Shown here one piece after another: positions 7,651 to 12,445 of a stretch of 30,053 bases of DNA (within the stretch, counting starts at the first letter, position 1; every line of letters starts with the position of its first letter). The DNA is from a virus, in the IMG/VR virus record IMGVR_UViG_3300036770_000251, positions 1-30,053 of that record; one strand, 5' to 3'. A model generated the notes under the pieces. That model was given only the letters and a program-made list of their open reading frames with translations, ran no database searches and had not been told where the DNA came from. Position numbers and translations under genes: made by a program.

Positions 7651-7799
7651 TGGAAATCAACCTTAAATTGACGGTGGAAGAAGTCAACGCGATCCTACAA
7701 ACGCTCGGGCAACTCCCGACAATCAGCGGCGCGTGGCCTTTAGTGGTAAAGATCAAAGAGCAGGCGGAAGCGCAGGCAAAGGAGCAGAGCAATGGTTAG
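7650..7799 (+). CDS. 49-residue conserved phage protein
   Basis: Reading from ATG 7650, which overlaps the fibre stop by one base, gives a 49-residue protein starting MEINLKLTVEEVNAILQTLG and continuing with a LPTISGAWPLVVKIKEQAE segment and an AQAKEQSNG end. The helix-loop-helix pattern (VEEVNAILQTLGQLP, then WPLVVKIKEQAEAQ) is familiar from small proteins beside tail-fibre genes in other phages. It overlaps the next gene by eight bases in another frame. The function is unknown; a fibre-assembly or chaperone-like role is speculation. Confidence 0.7.
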   Translation: MEINLKLTVEEVNAILQTLGQLPTISGAWPLVVKIKEQAEAQAKEQSNG

Positions 7800-8139
7800 C
7801 ACTTGGAAGGTTCGCCAGATTGAGGCAATAAATGAAGATGCATTGGAAAACGTCGTTGTGACGGTTTGCTTTGCTATTGACGGCAACGAAAACGGGCTAA
7901 AAGGCTATGTGGAAGGCGACGTTAAGTTGCTGCCGCCGGATGCTGATCACTTCACCAAGTTGGCTGACGCTACCGAGGAACAAGTGATTGGCTGGACGAA
8001 GGCCGCGCTTGGCGATAACGGTGTCGCGCAAGTGGAGTCTAGGCTGCAAGCGCAGATCGACGCGCAGAAGGCCGCGCAGCCGAAGGTTGTGCCGCTGCCG
8101 TGGGCGCCTGTCGAGGAAAAGTCTGAAGAGGCCGCGTAA
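7792..8139 (+). CDS. Hypothetical protein, first copy of a tandem paralog pair
   Basis: A 115-residue protein beginning MVSTWKVRQIEAI, followed by a beta-rich segment (VVVTVCFAIDGNENG), then VKLLPPDADHF, a helix EEQVIGWTKAALG and an acidic tail after PLPWAPVEE. The next gene has the same order of elements, so the two arose by duplication. The fold looks like a small alpha/beta protein of unknown function, conserved in phages next to fibre genes. The start overlaps the preceding gene by eight bases and the stop overlaps the paralog start by one base. Confidence 0.75.
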   Translation: MVSTWKVRQIEAINEDALENVVVTVCFAIDGNENGLKGYVEGDVKLLPPDADHFTKLADATEEQVIGWTKAALGDNGVAQVESRLQAQIDAQKAAQPKVVPLPWAPVEEKSEEAA

Positions 8140-8450
8140 TGGCTAACTGGAAAGTCACCCGAGTAGAGACATCTAGTATTGGCGGCTTGAACGATGTAAT
8201 CGTTCGCTGTGCGTTTGATGTGCTGGCATCCGATGGCGAAAAGCACGGTTATGCGTTCGGCGAAGTAAACTTGCTGCCGCCCGATGCCGCCGCTTTCGTG
8301 GCGTTTGACTCGGTGACTCACGAGCAGGCTGTGGAATGGGTAAAGCAAGCCTTGGGTGCTGCTGCGGATGAATACGAGGCGAAGGTGCAAGCGCAAGTAG
8401 ATAACCAGCCGCAGCCTGTCTCGTTTGTGCCGTTGCCTTGGAGTAAATAA
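8139..8450 (+). CDS. Hypothetical protein, second copy of the paralog pair
   Basis: A 103-residue protein aligning along its length with the preceding gene: MANWKVTRVET, VIVRCAFDVLASDGEKHGYA, VNLLPPDAAAF, the helix EQAVEWVKQALG and a terminal PLPWSK. Identity is partial, so the duplication is not recent. The shared W-K-V start and PLPW end are strong internal markers. The function is unknown; both lie between a fibre and a tailspike gene. ATG 8139 overlaps the preceding stop by one base. Confidence 0.75.
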   Translation: MANWKVTRVETSSIGGLNDVIVRCAFDVLASDGEKHGYAFGEVNLLPPDAAAFVAFDSVTHEQAVEWVKQALGAAADEYEAKVQAQVDNQPQPVSFVPLPWSK

Positions 8451-8452
8451 AC

Positions 8453-9922
8453 GTGGCTAACGTCAAAATCTCTCAATTACCATCGGCTACTCAACCCCTT
8501 AGCGGCGCTGAATTAGCGCCTATCGTGCAGGGCGGCATTACCAAAAAGACGCCTGTTAGCGCATTTGGGCAGATGGTTAGCGTCAAGACTTATGGCGCGG
8601 TAGGCGACGGCACAACGGACGATACGGCTGCGTTTACTTCTGCGATGGCTGCATCGACGGCGGTGTATGTTCCGCCTGGTACCTACAAAATTACTTCTGG
8701 TTTGGCGGTTCCTGATAACACCACGCTGTACGGCGCTGGTCGCGGAACCTCCAAACTGTTGCATGCCTTCAACGGCGACATGATGACGTTAGGTAACTAT
8801 TCGGGCTTGTCCGGCCTTTGGATTGACGGGCAAGGCTCAACGTACACCGGCCAAGGCGTCGTCATTAACAACGGCGTGGGTCGCCAAAGCATTACTAACT
8901 GCCGCATTACCGACTTTAATGCCGCTTGTTTGTATTTTTACTCCCAAGGCGGTAATCAGTCCTCTGTATTTGACCTAATCGCCTCGCAGACCAACGGCGC
9001 AACTGGCACTGGCAACTACGCTATCGTCATTCAAGACACCGGTAGCGTGGAGTCTGGAGCATATCCGCGTAAGTTCTCGCACATCGAGACAAACGGGTTC
9101 TGCTCGTTTTCGTTCGGTTCAAGCAATAACACTTATGTTAACAACAGTTTTTTGGCTGATTTGTTCTACAGCCTGAACTCTCGCGCTACGTTGATTACAA
9201 ACTGCCGTATTGCCAACCAAGCAGCATTAACCATTCAAGGCAACAATCACACGATGATTAGTTGCGCGATCACGCCGCAAATTACGATTCAGACTACGTC
9301 TGACAACATCGCGTTGCAGGGCAATAGTTACAACAATTTGCCAATCATTGATAACGCTAACAACAATCGCAACTTGCTGGATGCGTGGCGCATTGCCTAT
9401 ACGCCTGTAGTGTCTGTTGATCCTACTCCGCAGGCCGCAGGAACCTTTGTTATTGGCAAGGTTTATGAAATTGTCGTCGTCGGCACAACTGACTTTACGT
9501 TGATTGGCGCCGCATCAAATACCGTAGGCGTTCAATTTACGGCAACCGGAGCCGGGACCGGCACTGGCACTGCTAAGTCGATTGCGTCTATCGGTAACGG
9601 CACTATTGCGGGCACTTACTTCCGCAACGGAGCCACGACCACGTTTGTTGTGGAACTTACTGTGGGCAGCACGACTGATTTAGGAACCGGTGGTATTCGA
9701 GTGTCACTGCCGTATGCCGTTAAAAACGACACTTTGTACGCAGGCGGAACGGTTTACATGAACATTGGCGGAACCGTTTATTCAGGTTTTGTTCAAATAC
9801 CCGGAGCCGGTTCAACCATTGCAGAACTTTTGCGCGATACGTCTGGATCGGTAACGTACAACAGCCCAGCAGCATTTGGAACAAATGACTTTATTCGTTT
9901 GTCTGCTACGTTCCCGAACTAA
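8453..9922 (+). CDS. Tailspike-like protein with pectate lyase-type beta-helix
   Basis: A 489-residue protein with a GTG start preceded by GGAG at 8440-8443. Residues 1-40 (KISQLPSATQPLSGAELAPI) form a common tail-attachment leader. The VKTYGAVGDGTTDDTAAF motif (about 44-61) opens a pectate lyase 3-type right-handed beta-helix running to about 300, with repeated strands and N/G turns (YTGQGVVINNGVGRQSITNC). Around 325-375 a second unit (FVIGKVYEIVVVGTTDF, ATGAGTGTGTA) resembles a repeat domain found in other phage fibres. Such spikes usually bind and often cleave surface polysaccharide; the catalytic residues cannot be assigned by eye. Its place upstream of the scaffold differs from P22, where the tailspike is at the far end of the late region. 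Confidence 0.85.
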   Translation: MANVKISQLPSATQPLSGAELAPIVQGGITKKTPVSAFGQMVSVKTYGAVGDGTTDDTAAFTSAMAASTAVYVPPGTYKITSGLAVPDNTTLYGAGRGTSKLLHAFNGDMMTLGNYSGLSGLWIDGQGSTYTGQGVVINNGVGRQSITNCRITDFNAACLYFYSQGGNQSSVFDLIASQTNGATGTGNYAIVIQDTGSVESGAYPRKFSHIETNGFCSFSFGSSNNTYVNNSFLADLFYSLNSRATLITNCRIANQAALTIQGNNHTMISCAITPQITIQTTSDNIALQGNSYNNLPIIDNANNNRNLLDAWRIAYTPVVSVDPTPQAAGTFVIGKVYEIVVVGTTDFTLIGAASNTVGVQFTATGAGTGTGTAKSIASIGNGTIAGTYFRNGATTTFVVELTVGSTTDLGTGGIRVSLPYAVKNDTLYAGGTVYMNIGGTVYSGFVQIPGAGSTIAELLRDTSGSVTYNSPAAFGTNDFIRLSATFPN

Positions 9923-9926
9923 GGTG

Positions 9927-9955
9927 TTGCACCCTGTTAAACCATACAGTATTGT
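9927..9955 (+). promoter_or_regulatory. Weak candidate promoter before scaffold and coat genes
   Basis: TTGCAC at 9927-9932 and TATTGT at 9950-9955 are separated by 17 bases. The -10 matches four of six consensus positions, but the -35 matches only the first three. It lies in the longest intergenic stretch of the late region (9923-10000), where a boost for scaffold and coat would be useful. The evidence is weak without mapping of transcript ends. Confidence 0.25.
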
Positions 9956-9971
9956 TACCCCGTACTGGTGC

Positions 9972-9997
9972 GAATCATCAGGGATTCCCAAGGAATC
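9972..9997 (+). promoter_or_regulatory. Hairpin switch overlapping the scaffold ribosome site
   Basis: Three complementary segments precede the scaffold ATG (10001): GAATC at 9972-9976, GATTCC at 9983-9988 and GGAATC at 9992-9997. The middle can pair with either outer one. Pairing with the right-hand segment (6 bp, CAA loop) buries the Shine-Dalgarno AAGGAA (9990-9995). Pairing with the left one (5 bp) frees it. The complementarity is seen directly; the regulatory role is inferred. P22 scaffold synthesis is known to be repressed post-transcriptionally by free scaffold. Confidence 0.4.
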
Positions 9998-10000
9998 AAC

Positions 10001-10780
10001 ATGACTGACGAGAATCAACTCCCTGAAGTTGTAGCGGCGGAAGCCGCGCTGGAACCGGAAGCTACGGCGGCCCCGGAACCCGAAGTTGCGCCTAATGAGG
10101 CGTCGCCGGAAGAGAAGCCTGCCAAGGTATTCACTCAAGAAGAGCTGGATGCAATGGTCGGCAAACGACTTGCCCGTGAACGGCGCAAGTGGGAACGAGA
10201 GCAAGCATTGAGGGCGCAGCCGGCAACGACTGCTCCTGCAGAGCTGCCTAGCAAGATCGAAGACCCGGACGCGTACGCAGAGGCTTTGGCCGAGCGTAAG
10301 GCGGCCGAGCTCTTAGCTCGACGCGAAGCAGAGCGAGAAATGCAGGCTATTCGTGACGCGTATCATGATCGCGAAGAGGCGGCGAGGGACAAATACGAAG
10401 ACTTCGAGCAAGTCGCGTATAACAACTCGCTACCGATTACGACCGTGATGGCTCAGACGATTCAGGCTTCGGATGTTGGACCCGATATTGCTTATTACCT
10501 CGGTTCTAACCCCCGTGAGGCTGACCGTATTTCCCGCATGAGCCCTTACTTGCAAGCCAAAGAGATTGGCAAGATCGAGGCTAAATTGGCTGACAATCCG
10601 GTACCAATCAAGAAAACATCCAACGCGCCCCCGCCGATCAAACCTGTTTCGGCAAAAGGCACTAACGGATCGGCCTTTGAGACGACTGACCCACGGTCAA
10701 TTTCGGCCATGAGCACGTCTGAATGGATCGAACGCGAGCGCCAGCGGCAGATTAAGCAGTGGGAAGCGCGTCGTCGCTAA
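10001..10780 (+). CDS. Scaffolding protein
   Basis: A 259-residue, highly charged helical protein directly upstream of the coat gene, where P22 has gp8 (303 residues). The N-terminus is acidic and rich in Ala, Pro and Glu (about 1-45). FTQEELDAMVGKRLARERRKWERE (about 46-69) and the 90-140 region are coiled-coil-like. The C-terminus WIERERQRQIKQWEARRR is a basic helix, like the P22 scaffold end that grips the coat. It would guide procapsid assembly and then exit. I chose ATG 10001 with AAGGAA at 9990-9995; an upstream in-frame GTG at 9968 lacks a ribosome site and would add 11 unlikely residues. No protease gene is seen nearby, as in P22. Confidence 0.85.
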   Translation: MTDENQLPEVVAAEAALEPEATAAPEPEVAPNEASPEEKPAKVFTQEELDAMVGKRLARERRKWEREQALRAQPATTAPAELPSKIEDPDAYAEALAERKAAELLARREAEREMQAIRDAYHDREEAARDKYEDFEQVAYNNSLPITTVMAQTIQASDVGPDIAYYLGSNPREADRISRMSPYLQAKEIGKIEAKLADNPVPIKKTSNAPPPIKPVSAKGTNGSAFETTDPRSISAMSTSEWIERERQRQIKQWEARRR

Positions 10781-10801: not shown

Positions 10802-12007
10802 GTGGCTAATACACTTCTTACTATTGACATGATCACGCGGAAAGCTCTCGAGATCCTCGAGAACAACCTCGTGCTCACCCGCAACGTCAACCGTCAGTAC
10901 GACAACAGCTACGCTGTCGAAGGCGCCAAGATCGGCACCACGCTGCGTATCCGCTTGCCGGACCGCGCTCTTGTCACCGACGGTGCTGCCCTCCAGGTGC
11001 AGGACGACAACGAGCAGTTCACCACGCTCACCGTTGCCAACCAGAAGCACATCGGCGTCAACTTCACGACTGCCGAAATGACCATGCAGTTGGACGACTT
11101 TGCCGAGCGCGTGCTGAAGCCGCGTATCAGCCAGTTGGCCGCCAGCATCGACGCTGACGTTGCTAACTCGTTCCAAGGCATCTTCCAGTCAGTTGGCACT
11201 CCCGGCACGACCCCCAGCAGCACCGCTGTTCTTCTCGCTGCCCAGCAGAAGTTGAACGAAGCCGCTGCTGTGATGTCGCCGCGCTATGTCACCGTGAACC
11301 CGGCTGCTAACGCCGCGCTCATCGAGGGCATGAAGGGCTTGTTCAACCCGGTCAGCACCATTTCGGCGCAGTTCAAGAACGGTATGTTCGGCGAAGGCAT
11401 CCTGGGCTTTAATGAGCTCAACATGTCGCAGTCGATCAAGCAGTTCACAACGGGTAGCCGCGCTGCGACCACGACAGTGAGCGTTACGGTGTCCGCGCAG
11501 GGCGCCTCGACGATTACCCTCGTTGGTGTGGACGGTCAGACCCTCAAGAAAGGCGACGTGTTTACCATCGCTAACGTGTTTGCAGTTAACCCGCAGACCC
11601 GCGAATCGACTGGCTCGCTCCAGCAGTTTGTGGTCACTGAGGACATCACTGCAGCTAGCAGCTTGTACACGGATGTAAAGATCAGCCCGGCGATCTACAC
11701 CTCGGCGCACGCTCTGGCGACCGTCAACTCGTTCCCGCAGTCTGGTGCGGCTGTCACCTTTTTGGGTGGCGCTTCGACCCAGTACCCGCAGAACCTCGTG
11801 TACCACAAGGACGCTATTGCCTTCGCCACGGCTGACTTGCTCATGCCGCAGGGTGTCGACATGGCTTCCCGCCAGGTCCACAACGGTATTTCCATGCGCG
11901 TTGTCCGTCAGTACGACATCAACAACGACCGTATGCCGTGCCGTATCGACGTGCTGTATGGCTACTCGGTGATCCGTCCGCAGATGGCCGTGCGCCTCTG
12001 GGGCTAA
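10802..12007 (+). CDS. Major capsid (coat) protein, P22 gp5-like
   Basis: A 401-residue protein following the scaffold gene, close to P22 coat (430). It begins GTG at 10802 with GGAG at 10790-10793. Typical segments include MITRKALEILENNLVLTRNVNRQYD near the start, GAKIGTTLRIRLPDR (about 41-55), NFTTAEMTMQLDDFAERVL and the C-terminal RQYDINNDRMPCRIDVLYGY followed by a PQMAVRLWG end, all characteristic of the P22 coat family with the HK97 fold. A variable middle (about 220-300) fits the inserted domain of P22 coat. Base composition is more GC-rich, as expected for the most expressed gene. The leader CGGAGATAATTCA closely resembles that of the next gene. Confidence 0.93.
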   Translation: MANTLLTIDMITRKALEILENNLVLTRNVNRQYDNSYAVEGAKIGTTLRIRLPDRALVTDGAALQVQDDNEQFTTLTVANQKHIGVNFTTAEMTMQLDDFAERVLKPRISQLAASIDADVANSFQGIFQSVGTPGTTPSSTAVLLAAQQKLNEAAAVMSPRYVTVNPAANAALIEGMKGLFNPVSTISAQFKNGMFGEGILGFNELNMSQSIKQFTTGSRAATTTVSVTVSAQGASTITLVGVDGQTLKKGDVFTIANVFAVNPQTRESTGSLQQFVVTEDITAASSLYTDVKISPAIYTSAHALATVNSFPQSGAAVTFLGGASTQYPQNLVYHKDAIAFATADLLMPQGVDMASRQVHNGISMRVVRQYDINNDRMPCRIDVLYGYSVIRPQMAVRLWG

Positions 12008-12037: not shown

Positions 12038-12445
12038 ATGGCACTTTCAAACGGTACTAGTGGGTATCAGGTTGGCGCAGGCAATTCGTCTGAGCCGTTG
12101 ATGGGCGTGCTCGGTGCGGTCACGGCGTATGCCGGGTCCACCGGCACCATCGCGGTTGCCGACCTTGTGAACGGCGTGTTCTCGGTTGACTCGGGCGGCA
12201 CGGATGCAGGCACCTACTCGTTCGCGGCGGCTTCGCTCGTGGACGCGGCGGTTGCCAGCGCTCGCGTGGGCAGCACGTTCGATTTCTACTGCGTTAACCT
12301 CGGTGACAACGCTGCGAACGACGTGACTTTCTCGGGCACGGGCTGGACGATTGTTGGCTCGGCAGTGGTGGCTGACGGTACGTCGGCTCACTTCCGCGCT
12401 CGCAAGACCGGCGACGCTGCTTGGACTTGCTACCGTCTCGGCTAA
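12038..12445 (+). CDS. Probable decoration or minor structural protein (135 aa)
   Basis: A 135-residue Gly/Ala/Ser/Thr-rich beta protein directly after the coat gene, with a leader (CGGAGTAATTCA) almost identical to that of coat. The C-terminal half, with STFDFYCVNLGDNAANDVTF, then GTSAHFRARKTG and AWTCYRLG, has the pattern of a small beta-sandwich seen also in the next gene and in two tail proteins downstream. The position and Ala/Gly-rich N-terminus fit a head decoration or fibre protein. The function is inferred. Confidence 0.6.
   Translation: MALSNGTSGYQVGAGNSSEPLMGVLGAVTAYAGSTGTIAVADLVNGVFSVDSGGTDAGTYSFAAASLVDAAVASARVGSTFDFYCVNLGDNAANDVTFSGTGWTIVGSAVVADGTSAHFRARKTGDAAWTCYRLG

Follow-up and report, generated by a model that had tools for sequence, protein, structure and literature searches.

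Phages need scaffold and coat protein in a fixed proportion, and in P22 the synthesis of scaffold from gene 8 is subject to post-transcriptional autoregulation by unassembled scaffold. To our knowledge, no sequence element has been described through which scaffold synthesis is controlled at the RNA level. This autoregulation is not mentioned in PMC12005531 or PMC13386823, and no paper on it was found in the open-license PMC literature. Whether the short leader in front of a scaffold gene can hold such an element is the question raised by the locus described here, and the answer is that it offers a concrete and widespread candidate, with an exact structure, that probably controls the building of the virus shell.

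The window, by which is meant the whole stretch of DNA that was analyzed, is a virus record of 30,053 bases with a P22-type head module that includes portal (PF16510), scaffold, and coat. The scaffolding protein gene (10001–10780, plus strand; phrog_8865 head scaffolding protein, E 5.3e-31) is followed after 21 nt by the gene of a coat protein of the P22 fold (10802–12007, plus strand; PF11651, E 2.5e-38), the order typical of such a module, and scaffold and coat are probably carried on one mRNA. The gene on the 5' side of the leader encodes a pectate-lyase-like domain with weak matches to tailspikes; as it ends at 9922, positions 9923–10000 are intergenic. Within and next to this interval, the letters read by the initial annotation are where it had placed them: GAATC at 9972–9976, GATTCC at 9983–9988, AAGGAA at 9990–9995, GGAATC at 9992–9997, and the ATG of scaffold at 10001. 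Two other features of the neighborhood may be recorded. Two tandem DUF7936 (PF25590) proteins are encoded 5' of the tailspike-like gene, at 7792–8139 and 8139–8450, and a small protein encoded after coat (12038–12445) has a weak match (E 4.7e-05) to a PHROG named head scaffolding protein, with a decoration protein as a possible alternative identity.

From these letters the initial annotation had proposed a two-state leader, in which GAATC with GATTC and GATTCC with GGAATC form mutually exclusive hairpins, one burying the ribosome site AAGGAA and the other freeing it. Only one of the two hairpins stood. That over the ribosome site (9983–9997) is real and conserved, but its supposed partner is paired in 56.4% of the cells of an alignment of 101 distinct leaders (A1, described below) as against 55.8% in shuffles, shows no excess of covariation, and contributes no pair above a tree-based null. 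A switch calls for alternative helices that are both conserved and close in energy, and the energies also speak against it: for the window sequence, the alternative hairpin is predicted at −3.9 kcal/mol, 2.2 kcal/mol weaker than the ribosome-site hairpin alone (−6.1) and 7.8 kcal/mol weaker than the two hairpins that it excludes (−11.7 together), the other of these being an upstream hairpin of 9965–9970 with 9976–9981 (−5.6). Although the complementary letters are present in the window, a two-state switch is thus barely credible. The direct repeat GAATCA, suggested as a site for a binding protein, did not survive either. It is not kept in the hairpin loops of those leaders of relatives that were read, and besides the copies at 9972 and 9993, 21 bases apart, a third lies at 10012 inside the gene, so that the repeat is not special.

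The more general proposal, that of a structured leader holding the scaffold ribosome site, is supported by covariation, which had been named beforehand as its test and is present in relatives, and by hairpin predictions in those relatives. The structure that carries most of this signal was absent from the initial annotation, as was the upstream hairpin on which it is built. At 9960–9981 (plus strand), an H-type pseudoknot arises where the loop of a 6-bp hairpin pairs with three bases on its 5' side. The 5' strand of its stem S1 (CCG, 9960–9962) covaries with the 3' strand at 9971–9973, which reads CGA in the window and CGG in the nearest relative (L001). Loop L1, the dinucleotide UA at 9963–9964, is nearly invariant, being found in 108 of the 111 leaders with a single strict hit even though L1 was left free in the search. 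Stem S2 pairs CUGGUG (9965–9970) with CAUCAG (9976–9981), with a conserved A at 9977 opposite U or C, and loop L3 between the 3' strands of the two stems (9974–9975) has 2 nt in the window and in 89 of the same 111 leaders, 3 nt in 14, and 1 nt in 8. The window has only two of the three S1 pairs and one G-U pair in S2, whereas S1 is complete in the nearest relative; the window is best read as a slightly decayed example of the pseudoknot.

In relatives the common pattern is CCG-UA-CUGGUG-CGG-UU-CACCAG, followed by the ribosome-site hairpin and then by ATG. The strict 6-bp form, searched with no constraint on L1 or on the fifth S2 pair, was found in 114 of 187 leaders as against 0.9 expected from shuffles, and the strict hits include 16 types of S1 and 30 types of S2, of which about two each are probably due to chance. 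That the helices vary while the UA of L1 and a single A hardly do fits selection on shape rather than on the sequence of an operator. The fifth S2 pair, which contains this A, is U-A in 81, C.A in 29, and C-G in one of the 111 leaders, so that the A is kept in 110. We infer that the U of L1 may contact the conserved A in the groove of S2, an arrangement that would explain how C can replace the U partner of this A. A coding explanation for the conservation, in which an in-frame GTG at 9968 would extend scaffold, was rejected on the pattern of spacing across leaders, because eight different spacings between S2 and ATG occur, from 15 to 23 nt, and these do not go in steps of three. The folding energy of the leader as a single sequence is unremarkable, with z between −0.35 and −1.08 for four stretches; since shuffles did as well, this energy was left out of the evidence.

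The covariation was assessed in two sets of sequences. For the first, leaders from 80 relatives of the scaffold were combined with 80 loci of coat relatives, giving 160 sources, in 159 of which scaffold was matched; 7 of the 159 were too short or had no ATG, and 111 distinct leaders remained at a length of 70 nt and 101 at 60 nt. Alignment A1 was made by MAFFT, with no use of structure, from the 101 leaders (100 relatives and the window). In A1, S2 is paired in 93.9% of cells, with both-sided changes in all six pairs, and S1 in 86.7%, with both-sided changes in 19 cells as against 2.8 in shuffles, while the first S1 pair is missing in 20 of 98 leaders. The pairing depends on the exact register: when the partners are shifted by 1–3 columns, no more than 52% of the cells of the whole structure pair, as against 77% in register, and no more than 53% of those of S1. 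Under a tree-based null, two S2 pairs exceed expectation and a third has E 0.47, and S1 pairs take the 8th and 9th places among 861 without being significant singly. This null is our own simplified version of a published approach, with the tree built from the leaders themselves. Because the sequences within each set are related, the cells of either alignment are not independent events, and the tree entered only into the tree-based tests.

The second, more distant set was collected through the coat proteins of Thalassomonas phage BA3, Vibrio phage VvAW1, and the environmental phage cta1H496. It comprised 139 loci, of which 135 had a coat start and 25 had no usable scaffold start, and merging of repeats left 93 leaders; the scaffolds of BA3, VvAW1, X14, FGH, and cta1H496 are about 29–43% identical to that of the window over the matched part. 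A generic descriptor, specifying three Watson-Crick crossing pairs, an L1 of 1–3 nt, an S2 of 5–7 bp, and an L3 of 1–3 nt, matches 68 of the 93 as against 1.75 expected from shuffles, with a few of the matches plainly due to chance and lying elsewhere in the stretch. Alignment A2 joins 86 distant leaders with the window; in some of them the start codon was moved downstream where the first ATG lies inside the pseudoknot, a choice informed by the pseudoknot itself. Here the pseudoknot cells are paired in 94.0% as against 70.5% in shuffles, and S1 in 92.7% as against 57.7%, with both-sided changes in 85 S1 cells as against 24.9. The tree-based test gave a stronger signal here than for A1: when 1,225 column pairs are ranked, the first seven places go to all three pairs of S1 and four of the six pairs of S2. 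Five of the seven, with S1 fully represented, have scores never reached in 40 null alignments. Of the two S2 pairs without signal, one hardly varies and the other is the U-A/C.A position. Pairing of hairpin-loop bases with bases outside the hairpin, with covariation, is what defines an H-type pseudoknot, and it is found in the family as a whole, with two of the three crossing pairs present in the window. The structure is well supported, and the family is solid and wide.

Between the pseudoknot and the start codon lies the hairpin over the ribosome site (GAUUCC/CAA/GGAAUC, 9983–9997, plus strand), which has a predicted counterpart in relatives and holds the ribosome-binding site AAGGAA (9990–9995) partly in its loop and partly in its 3' arm. 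Of 101 leaders, 99 are predicted to form a hairpin between S2 and ATG; the mean z is −2.24, as compared with −0.02 for the coat starts of the same loci, and the bases that pair with the end of 16S RNA are on average 53% paired in the predicted folds of the 101 leaders. The register of this hairpin varies, so that one fixed set of columns in A1 pairs only 55% of cells, and so does its distance from the hairpin of the pseudoknot, which is 1 nt in the window and 9–10 nt in the BA3 relatives inspected. In 49 distant leaders the region from S2 to ATG is more weakly folded, with a mean z of −1.18.

The place of the pseudoknot in its transcript can be estimated from promoter-like boxes. In the window, a candidate promoter of the sigma-70 type (9927–9955, plus strand) is composed of TTGCAC at 9927–9932 (3/6), a spacer of 17 nt, and TATTGT at 9950–9955 (4/6); at 7/12 it is weak, and a choice one base over scores equally. 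Boxes were counted in relatives where at least 9 of 12 letters agree with the consensus and the −10 box ends 0–14 nt before S1. Such boxes occur in 29 of 100 leaders of the window set (one of the 101 lacked enough upstream sequence) as against 3.4 in shuffles, with a maximum of 8 in 200, and in 30 of 49 distant leaders as against 3.35. At 15–24 nt before S1 there is no excess, with boxes in 2 of 100 and 1 of 49 leaders, respectively. With promoter-like boxes just upstream in many relatives, the pseudoknot therefore probably forms the 5' end of the mRNA or nearly so. Among the distant leaders there are 34 boxes of at least 8/12, and 32 of these end 6–10 nt before S1, with 8 nt as the spacing in 21; +1 would then fall no more than one or two bases from S1, so that transcription would start at or next to S1. 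In the window set, the commonest spacing is 4 nt (11 of 29), which by the usual rule places +1 inside S1, and 71 of the 100 leaders, that of the window among them, have no 9/12 box. S1 is kept nonetheless in the part of this set with the 4-nt spacing, as illustrated by a compensated variant in L055 (CTG with CAG), so that either transcription begins unusually near the box or read-through transcripts play a part.

The element stands before scaffold in phages of Vibrio, Shewanella, and Thalassomonas and in phages from lake water, and is distributed through a large group of mostly uncultured phages. A covariance model (R1) has one match in the window, at the leader site, and matches 27 of 37 whole records, with 25 of 28 matches in total directly before scaffold. 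That all 24 IMG/VR records match R1 is little informative, as one is the window, 14 were selected by way of proteins and have leaders that were used, themselves or as identical copies, to build the model, and 9 were selected by the pattern; the match is single in 23 of the 24. When viral contigs were scanned with the exact pattern, at least 120 stretches were found, with 118 new loci. Among the 118 new loci listed, scaffold is the next gene in 114, one has coat at the right distance, one lies at a contig edge, and two (L310 and L348, considered below) precede other genes. The gene on the 5' side changes, from the tailspike-like gene of the window to portal in BA3, X14, and VvAW1, while scaffold is constant. 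In bacterial genomes, the matches to the pseudoknot pattern were taken as chance, no scaffold or coat being found near them by tblastn among the matches listed (119 loci).

Named phages were compared by applying the descriptor to a stretch reaching from 110 nt upstream to 70 nt downstream of the scaffold start. Thirteen of 18 match (VvAW1, BA3, X14, FGH, cta1H496, ctn9Y15, ctkAd229, ctTUS972, ctNMl277, DSL-LC05, 1.184.A, D478, and PAE2), and five do not (P22, PBR31, P26218, EBPR podovirus 1, and ctfPj964). Because the covariance model misses several of the descriptor carriers, X14, VvAW1, and FGH among them, its silence alone is weak evidence; in P22, where 13 nt separate the portal and scaffold genes, neither model nor descriptor finds a match. 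The Pseudomonas phage PAE2 (L414, 2206–2227) has a 5-bp variant, CCG-ACU-UCCGG-CGG-AA-CCGGA, in which L1 reads ACT, flanked by a terminator-like hairpin and the gene that precedes coat.

A few copies head other genes. In two short contigs, each with a single match (L310, 7816–7838, minus strand; L348, 2043–2065), the pseudoknot precedes small non-scaffold genes. A related small protein is encoded in both contigs (37% identity over 79 residues, E 4e-18), and in L310 a GH108 endolysin is encoded downstream of the small genes; these genes are likely a lysis cassette. In another record (G007, from 13100; L443, 1522–1543), a second pseudoknot of different sequence lies between a long open reading frame and a gene of 82 amino acids, 315 nt before the copy at scaffold, with the ribosome site, as judged by eye, in the loop of an A/U-rich hairpin. 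Copies before non-scaffold genes favor a general role in mRNA over an operator for scaffold only.

On the pseudoknot, the hairpin, their covariation, the place before scaffold, and the promoter-like boxes nearby in many relatives, each of which computation bears out, a model of function can be built that we prefer tentatively, at somewhat short of an even chance: a 5'-terminal pseudoknot and a ribosome-site hairpin would protect and meter the scaffold-coat mRNA after transcription. This mRNA would start, or nearly start, with the pseudoknot (S1 of 3 bp, L1 UA, S2 of 6 bp, L3 of 1–3 nt), which would tie up the first transcribed bases and leave decay that depends on the 5' end with no free end to grip. 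The second hairpin, a weak one in which the ribosome site is divided about equally between loop and stem, would set how often scaffold is translated, and the two together would yield a long-lived, metered capsid mRNA. Protection and metering are inferred functions, preferred because the element is positioned with respect to the promoter, because a fast-evolving scaffold protein would find no constant sequence to read in its helices, and because rare copies head other transcripts. Several observations fit them poorly, including the 4-nt box spacing of the window set with +1 inside S1, the many leaders of that set (the window with its 7/12 included) that lack a 9/12 box, the incomplete S1 of the window and of the 20 A1 leaders without the first pair, the single copy in nearly all IMG/VR records, which a generic stabilizer need not predict, and the weaker ribosome-site hairpin of the distant set. 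Such a hairpin by itself would, moreover, expose the mRNA to decay through lower translation. More tentative again is the wider proposal of a previously undescribed family of pseudoknot "caps," in which the crossing helix would lock the first transcribed bases of phage capsid mRNAs, with the UA loop in the groove of S2 around the conserved A; in phages with P22-type coats and widely differing hosts, this would shield the messages from host decay and determine how much scaffold is made.

The chief rival is autogenous control, in which free scaffold would bind the pseudoknot and lock the ribosome-site hairpin, so that synthesis of scaffold but not of coat stops when scaffold is unassembled. Feedback by scaffold, which the initial annotation had proposed, has points in its favor: the element stands directly before scaffold whatever the 5' gene, the ribosome site lies inside a conserved hairpin, and scaffold feedback operates in P22. 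The principle is also established by the leader of T4 gene 32, in those passages of PMC3014915 that treat it. Yet the helix sequences drift, the scaffolds of named carriers share only about 29–43% identity with that of the window over the matched part, copies precede other genes in L310, L348, and the second site of G007, and P22 itself, with its 13-nt gap, has no element detectable by model or descriptor, so that this reading is doubtful. The binding partner might instead come from the host, with a ribosomal protein, a small molecule acting on a riboswitch, or temperature opening and closing the ribosome-site hairpin. The layout, a pseudoknot with conserved loop bases next to a ribosome-site hairpin, resembles that of riboswitches or of rpsO, and components of this kind are common to hosts that otherwise differ; but few unpaired bases are conserved beyond UA and no Rfam counterpart was found for the leader of the window or for the loci of 20 relatives, and such a sensor is improbable.

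Two further readings turn on the place of the element at the inferred start of the transcript. Two adjacent structures there could act on the nascent RNA, binding RNA polymerase for read-through of a long late operon as does putRNA of phage HK022; passages of PMC9378689 place putL just downstream of its promoter and describe two stem-loops. The element is only about 40 nt long as compared with about 70 nt for put, however, and its second hairpin follows the ribosome site rather than keeping a fixed distance (1 nt in the window, 9–10 nt in the BA3 relatives inspected). An antiterminator is accordingly rated as quite improbable, and both this action on RNA polymerase and the host-factor sensor are less likely than protection and metering or autogenous control. 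S2 could also be explained as an inverted repeat in DNA adjoining the promoter-like site, that is, as an operator rather than an RNA fold, except that S1 crosses S2 and covaries, which is not required of an inverted repeat, and that UA and the U or C opposite A are strand-specific; this explanation is very improbable.

Comparison with known systems helps to place the preferred model of protection and metering. The 5'-terminal stem-loops of ompA and papA mRNAs stabilize these messages, although they are stem-loops rather than a pseudoknot and belong to host genes, not to a phage. In rpsO, the pseudoknot is bound by a ribosomal protein and overlaps the ribosome site itself. What the phage leader would share with ompA and papA is base pairing at the 5' end of mRNA (titles cited in PMC3997798); with E. 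coli rpsO (S15), whose translational operator contains one (mentioned in PMC3014915), it shares a pseudoknot. The nearest known device is the leader pseudoknot of T4-type gene 32, an autogenous operator 67 nt before the start codon. As described in passages of PMC3014915, it too is of the H type and precedes the ribosome site of the phage gene in whose 5' leader it lies; here the position is directly upstream of scaffold. The ribosome-site sequence of gene 32 is described there as unstructured and rich in A+U, in contrast to the hairpin found here in 99 of 101 leaders, and the pseudoknot here lies at the inferred 5' end. Passages on HK022 putRNA (PMC9378689) likewise describe two adjacent RNA structures near a phage transcript start, but these span about 70 nt, form two stem-loops with a triplex, and act on RNA polymerase in early transcription. 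In the filamentous phage SW1, 5' UTRs are said to influence transcript stability; these are exceptionally long, and the abstract (PMC4762005) does not mention a short pseudoknot.

Against Rfam (4227 families), where membership was taken as a score above the gathering cut-off or E of at most 1, window positions 9850–10100 gave, with E up to 10, a single chance match inside the gene (E 6.4, far below the cut-off), and the loci of 20 relatives gave none with E up to 1. A 2010 survey of candidate RNAs (PMC2864571) names no such motif in its passages on phage, pseudoknots, or capsids, and no report of a pseudoknot in a scaffold leader was found in the open-license PMC literature. The leader is thus an RNA element outside Rfam, while a structured leader that controls a phage gene is a kind already known. 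As a second, unrelated pseudoknot leader in phages, small and at the inferred start of the mRNA, it would represent a new way to stabilize or meter a message and a new structure to solve.

Some smaller observations concern individual carriers. In rows of A2 from the cta1H496 group (L561, L550, and L580), an inverted repeat lies just 5' of the pseudoknot with arms that, by eye, change but continue to match; this repeat could be an operator or a third RNA hairpin. The annotated scaffold starts of Vibrio phages 1.184.A (L411, 589) and D478 (L413, 586) fall inside the pseudoknot (ATGGCTACC), and another ATG occurs 54 nt downstream, at the place of the X14 start. In MW202483, the scaffold gene (L280, 2964–3743) is annotated as the conjugal transfer protein trbI.
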